DNA from: an uncultured bacterium
GTDB lineage: Bacteria; Cyanobacteriota; Vampirovibrionia; Gastranaerophilales; Gastranaerophilaceae
Reading direction: 5' to 3'
Assembly: GCA_949286705.1 (NCBI GenBank)
Contig: CASEDF010000001.1
Location: 186,001-250,000 of the forward strand
DNA length: 64,000 nt
Under the pieces are notes generated by a model. The model saw nothing but the letters and a program-made list of their open reading frames with translations. It was not told the origin of the DNA and made no database searches. Shown one piece after another: positions 45,495-64,000 of the stretch. The translations under genes were made by a program, and so were the position numbers. The stretch's first letter is position 1, and every line of letters starts with the position of its first letter.

Positions 45495-45523
45495 TTGTCA
45501 AAATATAGTAAATATGTTATAAT
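45495..45523 (+). promoter_or_regulatory. Promoter of pseudopilin gene 1
   Basis: TTGTCA (45495-45500), 17 bases and TATAAT (45518-45523) lie 24 bases upstream of the ATG at 45548. It lies downstream of the sRNA terminator, so the pilin mRNA starts independently. Confidence 0.75.
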
Positions 45524-45547
45524 AAAATTCAAATAAGGAGAGTTAAA

Positions 45548-46560
45548 ATGGAAGATATGACTATTTTGAATCTCGGGGGGGGGCGACTCTCCTAGGTAGA
45601 AATAGCAAGGGTTTTCAGGGCGCATGTCATCATGAACCTTGTAAAGTTGGCCCAAAATTTGTCATTCTGAACTTGTTTCAGAATCTCAAAAAACGTAACC
45701 CAGCCCATCGAATTTCTAAGTTCGCAAGGCTCACTAAGAAATTCAACCCTGGTGGGGTATACCCTGTGAGCTTCGCTCACAGAAAACACACTCCTTACTC
45801 TACTCACGTAAAACGTGTCGCGTTTACTTTGGCTGAAGTTCTGATCACCCTCGGCATAATTGGAATTGTTGCAGCCATGACAATACCGACACTTGTAAGC
45901 AAGATACAGGAAGCCCATTTTCATGCCAAATGGAAGGAATGTTATGCAATATTAAATAATGCATTCAAAATGGTTGCAGCCGAAAATCCGCGTATGTTAG
46001 TTACGAATCCTGAAAACTATAATCCTTCAAAAGAATTTATAGAGGTAATTTTATCTCACCTTCAAGTTGTAGATGTTTGTGGTGCAAATGGCAACTATGT
46101 TGAAAATTCCTGTGATAATTATTCGTATCATAAAGACAGTCAGATAAAATACAAATGGTCCGGTATTGCAGGTGTATCTTCTCAATATACATCATTGTCA
46201 GGAAGTGTTTTAAGTGCATATGATTTTGATAATATGGCGGTTTTGTTAAAAAATGGGGCATCAATATATTTTGGAGGCTCACATAGCGGAACAACAATAG
46301 TTGTTGATGTAAACAATTTTAATGGCGGACCGAATGTTCTTGGTAAAGATGTCTATGTGATAAGTATGTCAGACGGAATAATATTGAACCAGTACATAGA
46401 AAATTTATATTTTAAGCCGTCAGGAGATGAAGGAACAAGAACAGAAAAAGAGGGTTATGCAGGCTGTGACGAATCGATTGGGTTAACTTCGGAAACTGTC
46501 CATTACATATTTCAAGCCTCAGGTGCCGGCTGCAGTTACAAATATTTGCATGAAAAATAA
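45548..46560 (+). CDS. Pseudopilin-like protein 1, frame interrupted at a G9 tract
   Basis: The ATG at 45548 with AAGGAG upstream reads nine codons, three GGG codons and CGACTCTCC, then stops at TAG 45593. The pilin frame is shifted by one base: it is open from the G tract to 46560, and its first usable start is a TTG at 45673. The type IV prepilin signal KRVAFTLAEVLITLGIIG is at about 45826-45880 with A in place of G before F. The mature part is a minor-pilin-like protein ending SGAGCSYKYLHEK. One extra G would make a single 337-residue protein. The segment between the G tract and the signal contains repeat DNA read as VILNLFQNL. Confidence 0.6.
45575..45600 (+). repeat. G9-CGACTC motif, copy 1
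   Basis: Nine G followed by CGACTCTCCTAGGTAGA. The same motif with CGACTCCTCTA follows nine G at 50072 and 63972. All three lie a few codons after a start codon and keep GGG GGG GGG in the start frame. Confidence 0.85.
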
Positions 46561-46599: not shown

Positions 46600-46628
46600 T
46601 TGCATAAAACCCTTTTTTCTTTTATAAT
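46600..46628 (+). promoter_or_regulatory. Promoter of the DUF177-rpmF-plsX-fabH operon
   Basis: TTGCAT (46600-46605), 17 bases and TATAAT (46623-46628) lie just upstream of the first gene's ribosome site AAAGGAGAG. Confidence 0.7.
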
Positions 46629-46648
46629 TGGATAAAAAGGAGAGAAAA

Positions 46649-46897
46649 ATGGCACAACAATTTAATCCGCAGAATGTTAAAACAAGAACATCAGTTCTGG
46701 TTTTTATCAAAGGTTCAACAGCACCTTTAGTTTTGTATGTTGAAAACCCTCAGGATTTGTACAACGAGTTGACTCAATTAATGAAGTCTTCAGCGGCAAC
46801 ATTTATTGAAAAAGAAACAACAGGTCCTTTGAAAAAAGTCTGCTTTGTATCTAACCAGATTGCAGCACTTGCTATGCAAGAGGAGCAGTACGTTTAA
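46649..46897 (+). CDS. Small conserved-looking protein, unknown
   Basis: The ATG at 46649 follows AAAGGAGAG and gives 82 residues. The core SVLVFIKGSTAPLVLYVEN, then DLYNELTQLMKSSAATFIE, reads as a compact alpha/beta domain, perhaps PH- or Roadblock-like, but no family is recognised. Its stop overlaps the ATG of the DUF177 gene, so it is the first gene of the lipid operon. Confidence 0.75.
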   Translation: MAQQFNPQNVKTRTSVLVFIKGSTAPLVLYVENPQDLYNELTQLMKSSAATFIEKETTGPLKKVCFVSNQIAALAMQEEQYV

Positions 46898-47397
46898 TGC
46901 ATAAATCTTTATCAATAGAAGATCTTGAAGGCGCTAAAAACAAGACCCTTCATTGTAAAGTTGAAGAAGATATTGACGGTATTAATGCTGTAACGCCTAT
47001 TTCCGCTGACTTAACATTTTCATCACTTGGAGATTTTATAGAAGTCAAAGGAAATGTTAAGGGAATTGTTAAGCTTGAATGTGATTTGTGTCTTAAAGAA
47101 TTTGAATATAATCTTGATTTTGATATAGATGAACTTTATGCAAAACACGCACTATTGGAAGCTTCTGACGAATCCGGTCAGGAAATTGAAATCAAAGACG
47201 GACAATTTGTTACGGATTTGAACGGAGAAGATGAAATTGATATTTATGACTTATTGTATCAATCTGTAATATTAAATTTACCAAATAAGAAAGTTTGTGG
47301 TATAAATTGTAATGGAGAGGATAAATTTTTGAAAGAAGAACAAATGTCCGATCCGAGAATGGATGTCTTTAAAAACATCAAAATAGAAGAAATATAA
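46897..47397 (+). CDS. yceD: DUF177 (YceD) family protein
   Basis: The 166 residues contain the DUF177 pattern: VKGNVKGIVKLECDLCLKEF with the Cys pair, later IDIYDLLYQSVILNLPNKKVC. In most bacteria this gene precedes rpmF, as here, and has been linked to 23S rRNA levels. The N-terminus is usual, and the two C-terminal Cys (KKVCGINCNG) may bind zinc. Confidence 0.9.
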   Translation: MHKSLSIEDLEGAKNKTLHCKVEEDIDGINAVTPISADLTFSSLGDFIEVKGNVKGIVKLECDLCLKEFEYNLDFDIDELYAKHALLEASDESGQEIEIKDGQFVTDLNGEDEIDIYDLLYQSVILNLPNKKVCGINCNGEDKFLKEEQMSDPRMDVFKNIKIEEI

Positions 47398-47425
47398 GTA
47401 GTAAAAATAAAAAGGAAAAAGAAAA

Positions 47426-47797
47426 ATGGCAGTACCAAAGAAAAGAACAGGACATTCCGCACAGGGACACAGAAGAAGCAACTGGAAGGCTACAAAGCCG
47501 GAAACTACAAAATGCCCGAATTGCGGTGAAACAAAATTAGCACATACAGTATGCACAGCATGCGGTTACTACAAAGGTAAAGCAGTAAGCATCAAATCAC
47601 CTGACTATGTAGAAACCGTTGTTGAAAAGAAAAAACCTGCAAAAAAAGCAGCACCGAAAGCTAAAAAGGCAGAAAAAGCTGAAAAAGTTGAAGAAGTTGC
47701 AGAAGAAGTAAAAGCTGAAGAAACTTTGGAAGCTGAGGAAGCTAAAGCTGAAGTTGTCGATGAAGAAAAAGTAATCGAAGAAAAAGAAGCTGAATAA
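47426..47797 (+). CDS. rpmF: Ribosomal protein L32 with long acidic tail
   Basis: Residues 1 to about 58 are ordinary bL32: MAVPKKRTGHSAQGHRRSNW with the zinc ribbon CPNCGETKLAHTVCTACGYY. The next 65 residues are a low-complexity tail, first Lys/Ala rich (KKKPAKKAAPKAKKAEKAEK) and then Glu rich (VEEVAEEVKAEETLEAEEAK), ending EEKEAE. Normal L32 stops near residue 60. The tail would project from the large subunit. The gene lies in the usual DUF177-rpmF-plsX order. Confidence 0.95.
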   Translation: MAVPKKRTGHSAQGHRRSNWKATKPETTKCPNCGETKLAHTVCTACGYYKGKAVSIKSPDYVETVVEKKKPAKKAAPKAKKAEKAEKVEEVAEEVKAEETLEAEEAKAEVVDEEKVIEEKEAE

Positions 47798-47874
47798 GTT
47801 TATAGCCTTGAAACGTCATCCCCGATGAGGGGATTGACGTAAAAGGGGAAGATAGTTGGCTTAGGAGAGGGAAA

Positions 47875-48930
47875 ATGACAAGAATAGCAATAGATGCAAT
47901 GGGCGGCGATCATGCCCCGCACGAAATAGTAGCGGGAGCTGTTTGGGCTGCTCAGGATTACGGCGTAGCACTTGAATTGGTCGGGAAACAGGATAGAATT
48001 GAGCAGGAACTCGACAGAATTTCTCACGAAGGTTTTTATTCGGATTGCGGAAAGGCCGGAAAGCAGCATCGTATAAAAATAGACACTTCTAAGCTGGATA
48101 TAAAAATTACCCATGCTTCCGAGATTATTGAAATGGGCGAGGCCCCGGGACAAGCTATCAGAAAGAAGAAAAAATCTTCAATAGTTTTGGCAGTTGATGC
48201 TGTTGCAACAGGCAGTTCCGACGCGGTTGTCGCAGCCGGCTCAACAGGTGCCGCTATGGCATCAAGTTTGTTCGGTCTGGGCAGAATCCCCGGAATTGAC
48301 AGACCCGCAATTGCCGTAACTTTACCGACTATTAAAAGACCGATTGTTGTTATTGATGCCGGTGCTAACAGTAATTGCAGCCCTGAAATGCTTTATCAGT
48401 TTGCGGTTATGGGAACAACTTTTTCTAAAAACGTTTTAGGAATTGAGCATCCGCGTGTAGGTGTTTTGAATATCGGTGAAGAAGCCGGAAAAGGAAATGA
48501 GCTTGCACAACTTACTTATAAATTATTGGAAGAACATCAGGAAAGAATTAACTTTGTCGGAAATATTGAAGGTAAAGAAATTTTCCTGAGCGTTTGTGAT
48601 GTTGTTGTTTGCGATGGTTTTGTCGGAAACGTTGCGTTGAAAGTAACTGAAGGCACTTCTCAAATGTTATTCAGAATGCTTAAGCAGGAATTTAAAGCGG
48701 ATTTATTGGGTAAAGTTATCGGACTTCTTGCAAAACCGTTTATGAAGAGAATTTACACCAAAATTAACTATGAAGAATTCGGCGGCGCATTACTTTTAGG
48801 CGTCAAAGGAATTACGGTAATCTCACACGGCAGAAGTAAAGCCTATGCGATTAAAAATGCCGTAAGAGTTGCAAAAGAGGCTGTCGAAACCGGTGTTAAC
48901 GAGAAAATAGCAAAGTTTTATGAGGAATAA
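47875..48930 (+). CDS. plsX: Phosphate acyltransferase PlsX
   Basis: The 351-residue enzyme makes acyl-phosphate from acyl-ACP for phospholipid synthesis. It opens RIAIDAMGGDHAPHEIVAGA and holds AAGSTGAAMASSLFGLGRI, VIDAGANSNCSPEML and VVVCDGFVGNVALKVTEG. The start has GAGAGGG upstream. It overlaps the region before fabH, in the standard rpmF-plsX-fabH order. Confidence 0.96.
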   Translation: MTRIAIDAMGGDHAPHEIVAGAVWAAQDYGVALELVGKQDRIEQELDRISHEGFYSDCGKAGKQHRIKIDTSKLDIKITHASEIIEMGEAPGQAIRKKKKSSIVLAVDAVATGSSDAVVAAGSTGAAMASSLFGLGRIPGIDRPAIAVTLPTIKRPIVVIDAGANSNCSPEMLYQFAVMGTTFSKNVLGIEHPRVGVLNIGEEAGKGNELAQLTYKLLEEHQERINFVGNIEGKEIFLSVCDVVVCDGFVGNVALKVTEGTSQMLFRMLKQEFKADLLGKVIGLLAKPFMKRIYTKINYEEFGGALLLGVKGITVISHGRSKAYAIKNAVRVAKEAVETGVNEKIAKFYEE

Positions 48931-48934
48931 TAAT

Positions 48935-49951
48935 ATGGCAGATAAATATATCCCTGTTAAAATTGCAGGTGTTGGTTACAGTTTACCTGAAGCGGTTGTT
49001 ACAAACGATGATTTGACAAAATTATACGAAACATCCGACGAATGGATTTATACACGTACGGGGATTAAGGAAAGACGTTTGGTTTCAGGCGATGAAGATG
49101 CAATTGATCTCGGGTTTGACGCTGCAAAAAAAGCGCTTGACAAATCCGGAATTAAACCCGAAGAATTGGATTTGATTATTGCCGCATCATCTGCTCCTCC
49201 GCAGTTGTATCCTGCAATTGCATGCCATATTCAATCAAGATTGGGAATTGAAACCGATATTCCGGCATTTGATATTACTGCGGCATGCTCAGGTTTAATC
49301 TATGGCATGCAGGTTGCAAAAGGTTTTATTAATTCCGGAATTTACAAAAATATTTTGATAGTTGCAACAGATAACAACTCAAGATATTTGGACTGGTCAG
49401 ACAGAGGAACATCAATTCTGTTCGGCGACGGCGCTGGTGCCATGGTAATGACAGCATCTGATGACGGTCTGGATGATATTTTGTCAATTGATATTAAGGC
49501 AAAAGGTTCAATTGGTGAATTGATTTATAAAGATAATGTCGGCAAAAATTGTCCGCTTGTTGCTCCGTGTACTGAAAAAGACGGTTTTATTCATATGAAC
49601 GGAAAAGAAGTTTACAAGTTTGTTGTAAGAATTTTGCCGCCATATATTGAGGAAGTTATTGAAAAATCAGGTTTGAAAGCTGATGACATTGATTATTTAA
49701 TTCCGCATCAGGCAAATTTGAGAATTATTCAGGCGGTTCAGGAAAGACTTCAATATACTGACGAAAAAGTAATAACAAATATTAAATACTATGGAAATAC
49801 ATCAGCTGCATCAGTTCCTATTGCTTTGGCAGAAGGTGTTGAAAAAGGTACTGTTAAACTTGGCAGAGATAAAACAGCAATTCTATGCGGTTTTGGTGCA
49901 GGCATGACATGGGGTGCCGCAATCGTAAGACTTCGTGAAGGTATTTGTTAA
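48935..49951 (+). CDS. fabH: 3-oxoacyl-ACP synthase III
   Basis: From the ATG at 48935 (GAGGAA upstream) the protein has 338 residues. FabH starts fatty acid synthesis by condensing acetyl-CoA with malonyl-ACP. The catalytic triad is in ITAACSGLIYGM (Cys), IPHQANLRI (His) and KYYGNTSAASVPIA (Asn). A terminator follows 9 bases after the stop. Confidence 0.96.
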   Translation: MADKYIPVKIAGVGYSLPEAVVTNDDLTKLYETSDEWIYTRTGIKERRLVSGDEDAIDLGFDAAKKALDKSGIKPEELDLIIAASSAPPQLYPAIACHIQSRLGIETDIPAFDITAACSGLIYGMQVAKGFINSGIYKNILIVATDNNSRYLDWSDRGTSILFGDGAGAMVMTASDDGLDDILSIDIKAKGSIGELIYKDNVGKNCPLVAPCTEKDGFIHMNGKEVYKFVVRILPPYIEEVIEKSGLKADDIDYLIPHQANLRIIQAVQERLQYTDEKVITNIKYYGNTSAASVPIALAEGVEKGTVKLGRDKTAILCGFGAGMTWGAAIVRLREGIC

Positions 49952-50044: not shown

Positions 50045-50997
50045 ATGAAAAATATGAAAAAAGATATTGTCGGGGGGGGGCGACTCCTCTAGGTAGCCAG
50101 GAAAAGGGTTTTGGCGGTATTGGTTGTGTAAAGTTACTAAGATACTATGATACTAAGGCAGTAAGAAGAAACATTCGTAATAGTAATGTAGCCCAACATA
50201 GTTATGTTCAGGATGACAAAAAACCTCACTTCACTCACGTTAAAAAAGCCGCCTTCACGTTAGCTGAAGTTTTGATCACCCTTGGCATCATCGGTATAGT
50301 GGCAGCCATGACAATACCGACACTTGTAAGCAAGATACAGGAAGCCCATTTTCATGCCAAATGGAAGGAATGTTATGCAATATTGAATAATGCTGTAAAA
50401 ATGGCTGCCGCAAATAATCCGTCGATGCTTGTATCACCGGAACCAAGCGGACCGTATGGAGTTGGGGGACCAAGAAGAGAATTTATAGATTCTGTTTTGT
50501 CTAATTTAAGTGTTTTGGAAACTTGTGGGAATGCTCTACATAATGGAGTTTATGACACTAGTAGTTGTGAAAATTGTCCATGGGCGGATGTTAATATTGA
50601 CTCAAATGGTATTTACAAGACTTTGGCAGGTAACAGGTTATCAGGTTATGATTTTGGCTTAAAAGCAGCATTCTTAAAAAATGGAGCAACAGTTTATTTC
50701 GGCGGTGTATTTAGCGGCTTGATTATTGCAGTGGATGTAAACAGTGCCTCAACAGCTCCAAATGTTTTAGGTAAGGATTTTTATGCAATCAGTTTATCAA
50801 TAAGCTCCAATTCCAATTTGAAGATAGAAGAACTTGACTTTAAACCTATGGGTGCTGAAGGAACAAGAACGGAAAAAGCGGGTTATGCAGGCTGTGATGA
50901 AAGTATCGGAGCTAATCCGGATGCAAACGGTACTATTAATGCGTTATTTGAAGCTCCCGGTGCAGGATGCAGTTATAAATATTTGTATGAAAAATAG
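50045..50997 (+). CDS. Pseudopilin-like protein 2, frame interrupted at a G9 tract
   Basis: The ATG at 50045 (MKNMKKDIV) enters nine G as three GGG codons, then CGACTCCTC and a TAG at 50090. The pilin frame is one base off. It is open from the G tract to 50997, with no ATG or GTG before the signal and only a TTG at 50272 inside it. The prepilin signal is KKAAFTLAEVLITLGIIG. The mature domain resembles gene 1 at both ends (NAVKMAAANNPSMLV; EGTRTEKAGYAGCDES; GAGCSYKYLYEK) but differs in the middle. One added G gives a continuous 317-residue protein. Confidence 0.6.
50072..50096 (+). repeat. G9-CGACTC motif, copy 2
   Basis: Nine G, then CGACTCCTCTAGGTAG. As in copy 1, the tract begins 27 bases after the first base of the start codon. 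AAGGGTTTT follows 8 bases further on; copy 1 also has it. Confidence 0.85.
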
Positions 50998-59266: not shown

Positions 59267-59297
59267 AAAAAAGCACCCCGCAAGGGGTGCTTTTTTA
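59267..59297 (+). terminator. Terminator after tpiA
   Basis: The stem AAAAAAGCACCCC-GCAA-GGGGTGCTTTTTT, identical to the one after fabH. Confidence 0.9.
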
Positions 59298-59298
59298 T

Positions 59299-59380
59299 TG
59301 CCAAATGGTAAGAATGTTATGCAATATTAAATAACCCATCAGGTGCAGGGTGCAGCTATAAATATTTGCATGAAAAGTAA
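59299..59380 (+). pseudogene. Relic of a pseudopilin gene
   Basis: The first part (59299 to about 59333) matches the pseudopilin genes at about 45922-45957 and 50353-50388 with few changes. The second (59340-59380) matches their last bases, coding SGAGCSYKYLHEK and stop. The middle is missing and a TAA interrupts the frame at once. The relic joins the terminator directly at a shared TGCCAAA. Confidence 0.8.
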
Positions 59381-63950: not shown

Positions 63951-64000
63951 TTGTATTTATTTGGGAAATTCGGGGGGGGGCGACTCCTCTAAGTACTGAT
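63951..64000 (+). CDS. Start of a third G9-tract gene, cut by the window edge
   Basis: GGAGG at 63939-63943 is seven bases before a TTG at 63951. It reads MYLFGKF, three GGG codons from a run of nine G (63972-63980), CGACTCCTC and a TAA at 63990. As in copies 1 and 2, one extra G would avoid this stop. Whether a pilin signal follows lies outside the window. Confidence 0.5.

Follow-up and report, generated by a model that had tools for sequence, protein, structure and literature searches.

We propose that the tract-bearing pseudopilin genes of this gut bacterium of the Gastranaerophilales form a large repertoire that is switched by slipped-strand phase variation, is OFF by default and carries its switching tract in the coding region of the prepilin leader; we put the probability of this reading at about three in four. 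It is inferred, without read, RNA or protein data, that the slippage occurs in DNA and is frequent, and that ON states are rare within a population; the biological purpose of the arrangement is likewise an inference. The window, i.e., the whole stretch of 64 kb that was analyzed, contains three such genes. An earlier note on this DNA had covered one of them; the system comprises about 50 genes per genome and is spread over the family.

Gene 1 is encoded on the forward strand, as are the other two tract genes of the window. It is preceded by a sigma-70-like promoter (TTGTCA-17-TATAAT, 45495..45523) that matches 11 of 12 consensus bases and has a TG ahead of the -10 element; 0.8 promoter-like sites are expected in the region from shuffled sequence. 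The Shine-Dalgarno sequence AAGGAGAG is located at 45535..45542 (AAGGAG at 45535-45540), and the ATG with a nine-codon leader head, MEDMTILNL (45548..45574), runs directly into a tract of nine G (45575..45583). The tract is followed by the conserved flank CGACTCTCCTAGGTAGA (45584..45600), read in the ATG frame as CGA CTC TCC TAG, with the stop as the fourth codon past the tract (45593-45595). The pilin frame is one base off. It reads GGATLLGRNSKGFQ...VKRVA and then FTLAEVLITLG, has no stop between the tract and the TAA at 46558-46560, and comprises a leader of 79 codons 3' of the tract (45586..45822) and a mature pseudopilin of 245 amino acids plus stop (45823..46560), which was assigned by profile matches and a structural model. 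At G9 the gene is OFF, and the two frames would join at G10 or G7.

These data confirm the arrangement described in the earlier note, namely a promoter, ribosome site and ATG running into G9 and an immediate stop, with the pilin frame one base away and open to the end. The leader is indeed free of stops, but its length had been given as about 90 codons, and only 79 separate the tract from FTLAEV. The claim that a run of nine G is rare holds as well: about 0.02-0.05 runs of at least nine G are expected in the window, and three are present, all of them copies of this element. That G9 is OFF and that a gain of one or a loss of two bases would turn the gene ON is supported by related copies, which are in frame with G10 and G7 and out of frame with G9 and G11. 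A start downstream of the tract cannot be excluded for gene 1 alone, because GTG at 45766 and TTG at 45673 are both in the pilin frame. The leader of gene 1 also contains a 27-bp sequence, GTCATTCTGAACTTGTTTCAGAATCTC (45661-45687), and similar TCATGCTGAACTCGTTTCAGCATC pieces are found in the leaders of other pilin genes. Dispersed repeats seem to have entered pilin leaders here, leaving the frame unclosed.

The runs of at least nine G in the window start at 45575, 50072 and 63972, and each is part of the same pilin switch element. In gene 2, the start ATG (50045) with the nine-codon leader head MKNMKKDIV (50045..50071) is followed by a G9 tract in the OFF state (50072..50080), and the mature pseudopilin of 247 amino acids plus stop is encoded at 50254..50997. 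The pilin frame of this gene was searched between tract and motif for ATG, GTG and TTG, and none of them was found. The third gene (locus L017) has a TTG start, a G9 tract (63972..63980) and a 122-codon leader and extends beyond the end of the window. In addition, a stretch of about 90 bp (59292-59380) joins positions 96-137 of a pilin body directly to the last 40 bp or so of the gene and is the relic of a deleted pilin gene. A scan of the window with Rfam returned tRNAs only.

The same genome (1.85 Mb, 41 contigs) contains about 50 tract-switched pilin-like genes, with G9 and sometimes C9 as the tract, and 69 exact pilin motifs. Altogether, about 60 distinct G/C runs of at least nine are found in the genome, compared with about 1.3 expected runs of at least nine G. 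Most of these runs share one layout: Shine-Dalgarno sequence, start codon, tract, CGACTC(TC/CT)C..., leader and FTLAEVL. The commonest spacing from start to tract is 27 nt (65 genes). The element is also present in sister species, Candidatus Gastranaerophilales MAGs. Within the genus, a second set of genes carries G10 followed by CAGTAGCTTAACCTCC, and a third set carries a C9 tract; the tract consists of G in most families and of C in another, with an equal frame offset. A search of 289 genomes of the class for the short-leader tract pattern gave matches in 48 genomes, all of which belong to nine genera of a single family; genomes of other families gave no match. Among viral contigs, three matched. 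A restriction of the element to 10 of 16 genomes was dropped, since the CGACTC pattern on which it was based undercounts: species without CGACTC carry the switch with other flanks.

Some tracts lie in other surroundings. Loci L011 and L012 have G10 in a different context that is common to both (G10 TACCATACTTTAAGC); a pilin motif follows in the same orientation about 270-290 bp beyond. At L063 (position 1088, + strand) a G13 tract adjoins C12 (GGGGGGGGGGGGGCGGGGTGGGGGGGCCCCCCCCCCCC) and is not part of the pilin set. Contig ends are often located a few hundred bases from a tract gene (C1, C5, C14 and C21 of genome G000 and several contigs of G009 and G012), as expected if shared leaders break the assembly.

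Reading frames were analyzed for 126 loci with an assignable start from ten related assemblies. A stop between the tract and the nearest motif was present in seven of them, and the remaining 119 genes were kept. Since openness was itself the filter, the telling figures are the 119 of 126 and the stop counts in the other frames. The pilin frames of the 119 genes add up to 9,795 open leader codons, with a median of 88 and a maximum of 191 per gene, whereas the other two frames contain 830 and 975 stops, with 603 expected from base composition. In the control, pilins of the same genome that lack a tract, leaders are only about 4-25 codons long and the frame closes soon upstream. Judged by sequence alone, what preserves the open leader frame as far as the tract appears to be that ribosomes pass through the tract at least on occasion. 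In the tract genes, an uninterrupted homopolymer of at least 7-8 bases lies within the frame or shortly behind its start, and in the 119 open genes the gain or loss of one base connects or separates frames that are otherwise intact. With G9 and C9, nearly all genes are one base short; G10 and G7 are in frame, and G11 is out. The exceptions to this offset (L127, L151, L216 and L233) have a one-base difference in the start region. Variants with ACGACTC behind the tract would be ON at G9; the three cases found, L100 with G8 and L013 and L169 with G10, are all OFF, although they are few.

Tract length is held at nine in 96 of the 114 slippery tracts of the genus, with a full range of 7-11. Only 14 of the 114 are ON, which is below one third (P 2e-7 if loci are independent, which paralogues are not). 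To account for so low a fraction, one must assume selection for OFF, a modal length of nine or some other route of expression; we read it as OFF by default, either through selection or because the OFF length is the preferred tract length. Only one interrupted tract was encountered (L115, G6AGG). It is OFF, with the leader in one frame and the body in another, which would fit the decay of a gene no longer able to switch, but this is a single case.

Tract length differs between related genomes. Of 22 syntenic pairs between species, defined by the same 375 bp upstream at more than 88% identity, 17 have equal tracts and five do not; among the latter are L260 (G9, OFF) with L148 (G10, ON) and L067 (G9) with L251 (G10). 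More diverged pairs show G7, G10 and G11 against G9. From the indel rate of the flanks, about 0.08 changes per tract would be expected, so that five in 22 is a modest excess, and by this count the tracts are less hypermutable within the genus than expected. Other genera of the family have tracts of 8-13 bases with other downstream flanks and with both +1 and -1 offsets. The common length is G10 in G117 and G11-G13 in G135, G145 and G174, and most loci are again out of frame: only seven of 65 loci of this set, which shares a few loci with the first one, are in frame. Two outcomes would have refuted the switch proposed in the earlier note. The first, a fixed length other than nine at which the frames join, was not encountered in three sister assemblies, whose contig names point to the short-read assemblers MEGAHIT and SPAdes. 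An invariant length of nine combined with a downstream start is contradicted by the range of 7-11, by the five differing pairs and by 25 genes in which ATG, GTG and TTG are all absent between tract and pilin motif.

According to the mechanism that we propose, each pilin-like gene has an uninterrupted G (or C) tract within the coding sequence of its prepilin leader, and slipped-strand mispairing during replication would add or remove one base of this tract. At the commonest length of a lineage, the ATG frame would end soon past the tract and no pilin would be produced; one step off, the frames would join and the long leader would be translated, to be cleaved off, as we infer, by the prepilin peptidase between A/G and FTLAE. 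Since most of the roughly 50 genes are OFF, any one cell would display only a few of the pilins, in a changing selection, and phase variation would act as bet-hedging of surface filaments. Slipped-strand phase variation explains both offsets, the in-frame copies, the G and C versions and the preservation of frames in OFF genes. In N. meningitidis, homopolymers of at least eight are predominantly variable within single colonies (PMC5084427). As a counterpoint, the hold at nine in this genus is tighter than the G8-G12 spread of C. jejuni (PMC4965091); the equal tracts in 17 of the 22 syntenic pairs, the modest excess of length changes and the low ON fraction also speak against the reading. A hypermutable repair defect is not supported, MutS and MutL both being present in the genome.

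The near-fixed length of nine in the genus could also be taken to point to stuttering of RNA polymerase at the tract, by which a fixed G9 yields a minor in-frame mRNA and a constant low level of pilin. Tracts of at least nine span an RNA:DNA hybrid, and stutter would serve both offsets seen in other genera. Slippage at the RNA level leaves unexplained, however, the in-frame G10 and G7 copies, the length differences at syntenic loci and the scatter of 8-13 in other genera, and transcriptional slippage is cited as affecting A/T repeats more readily than G/C repeats (PMC5084427). We regard it as unlikely, but without RNA data it is not excluded. The exact -1 shift that nearly all G9 genes of the genus need would likewise be supplied by programmed ribosomal frameshifting on GGG GGG GGG C, which would join the ATG and pilin frames at a fixed efficiency. 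The ACGACTC variants with G10 (L013, L169) and the lineages with a modal G12 require the opposite shift, though, and the C9 genes have the same design. Runs of C are not a usual -1 frameshift site. A hairpin between the tract and CUCUCC, predicted with a z of -3.1 in gene 1 and only -0.7 in gene 2, would favor this route, but it consumes the slippery tract itself instead of being placed 3' of it. One fixed frameshift cannot serve lengths of 8-13 with both +1 and -1 offsets, and the single constant offset at a fixed slippery site by which programmed -1 frameshifting is recognized is absent, given also the in-frame G10 and G7 copies, which leaves this explanation improbable.

A translation start downstream of the tract, with the tract as an inert remnant in the leader, would be compatible with the in-frame GTG at 45766 of gene 1, which is located behind GGGG, and with the 70 of 119 leaders that contain at least one ATG. 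It fails for the 25 genes without any start codon in this region; moreover, such a start does not require the frame to be open right up to the tract, yet 119 genes are open that far and the tract-less pilins are not, and we give this explanation very little weight. Homopolymers are error-prone in sequencing and the raw reads were not seen, so it is conceivable that the real length is ten and the genes are plainly ON. Tracts of G10, G11, G12 and G13 do assemble in the same and in sister genomes, however, the contig names of sister assemblies point to MEGAHIT and SPAdes, and G9 is agreed on by independent assemblies and by C9 on the other strand. Such an artefact is the explanation that we find hardest to credit.

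A hairpin across the tract that sequesters the ribosome binding site was considered and rejected: the minimum-energy folds do not form the pairing of Shine-Dalgarno and anti-Shine-Dalgarno sequences, which remains a lead only. In gene 1, AGGAGAG of the Shine-Dalgarno sequence is complementary to CTCTCCT 3' of the tract, as scored by complementarity. The pairings GGAGGTTAA/TTAACCTCC and AAGGAGCT/AGCTCCTT gave a permutation P of 0.005 across 34 representative families, few of which carry the signal. At L009 (470-560), L051, L354, L363 and L337, sequence behind the tract is complementary to the ribosome site, with an extension specific to each family, and might form a hairpin that spans start codon and tract.

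The tract can also mark a border between similar and differing DNA. Loci L140 and L173 have different start regions and near-identical DNA from the tract on, where the homology begins, whereas L014 and L161 have identical upstream DNA and differ in leader and body. Altogether, 27 pairs are near-identical from the tract on, and seven are of the reverse kind. Judging from such pairs, start regions stay with their locus while pilin bodies travel, and the two often meet at the tract. Within the 64 kb, the co-directional pilin genes 1 and 2 bracket a housekeeping block (46628-49951, from the ORF at 46628 to fabH) between prs and a YkgJ-like gene. This block is missing here in sister genomes, which have the order prs-pilin-YkgJ or prs-YkgJ, so that the rearrangement seems to be mediated by pilin copies. 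More tentatively, the roughly 50 pilin genes might form a dispersed archive that is OFF at a lineage-specific length, one slip away from ON, and whose cassettes are shuffled between chromosomal sites at the tract, so that the pili would undergo phase variation and antigenic variation together. The tract would then be both expression switch and recombination border in a gut Cyanobacteriota lineage; we consider this possible but would not bet on it.

The N-terminus of the encoded proteins shows the type IV pilin motif (G/A)FxxxE and a long hydrophobic helix (FTLAEVLITLGIIGIVAAMTIPTL). It matches the GspG profile (3.1e-05) and profiles of solved pilins, and scores 15.6 and 15.8 bits against TIGR02532, for which the cut-off of 16.3 is a model threshold and not a biological defining feature. 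In both window genes residue -1 is Ala, not Gly. An AlphaFold model of pseudopilin 1 predicts a helix at 3-54 (mean pLDDT 82). A fold search against the PDB gave nothing below E 2, which leaves the head domain without a solved relative, and therefore no function is given to it. The genome encodes a prepilin peptidase (PF01478, 34.7 bits) and T2SSE-type ATPases (PF00437, four matches, best 430 bits). On the basis of these profile and model data, the genes are type IV pilin-like (pseudopilin) genes; whether they encode pilus subunits or secretion pseudopilins is undecided.

If the proposed switching is real, an uncultured animal-gut lineage spends about 50 genes of a 1.85-Mb genome on switchable pilins, and pipelines that rely on assembled frames miscall most such genes, with a lost start, a wrong leader or a pseudogene call. 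The OFF bias raises the general question of how many pilins are shown by a single cell. Phase variation is known chiefly from host-adapted Pseudomonadota and Campylobacterota; no report of it in Gastranaerophilales was found among the open-access papers searched.

Several known systems resemble the one described here. PilC of Neisseria is a phase-variable pilus-associated protein with a poly-G tract in its signal-peptide region. As in PilC, translation of a pilus gene would be switched by a poly-G tract that lies where the secretion leader is encoded; PilC, however, is a tip adhesin present in few copies, whereas about 50 pilin-like subunits with class III (prepilin) leaders are encoded per genome here. 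The proteins share with type IV pilins and pseudopilins the GFxxxE class III signal (TIGR02532, GspG TIGR01710), the FTLAEVLITLG helix, Glu5 and a long alpha-1, and differ from them in leaders of up to 191 codons past the tract and in a head without a recognizable solved relative. The repeat of the Opa genes is a pentamer in the signal peptide, in contrast to the homopolymer in the prepilin leader here. Opa of Neisseria gonorrhoeae has about 11 phase-variable paralogues (PMC3745409). In both systems dispersed paralogous surface proteins each have their own repeat switch and expression is combinatorial, but Opa is another protein family with fewer copies. Campylobacter jejuni NCTC11168 has 29 poly-G/poly-C tracts of at least seven (PMC4965091). 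Its loci are similar in that an AT-rich gut bacterium carries tens of G/C tracts of 8-12 within frames, with ON/OFF switching by one base and surface functions. The C. jejuni genes mostly encode surface-modifying enzymes, whereas here one paralogous pilin family is concerned, with the tract equally placed in every gene, a strong OFF bias and MutS and MutL present. The poly-G contingency locus as such is known; judged by open-access papers only, the scale, the lineage, the position in the leader and the OFF bias look new.
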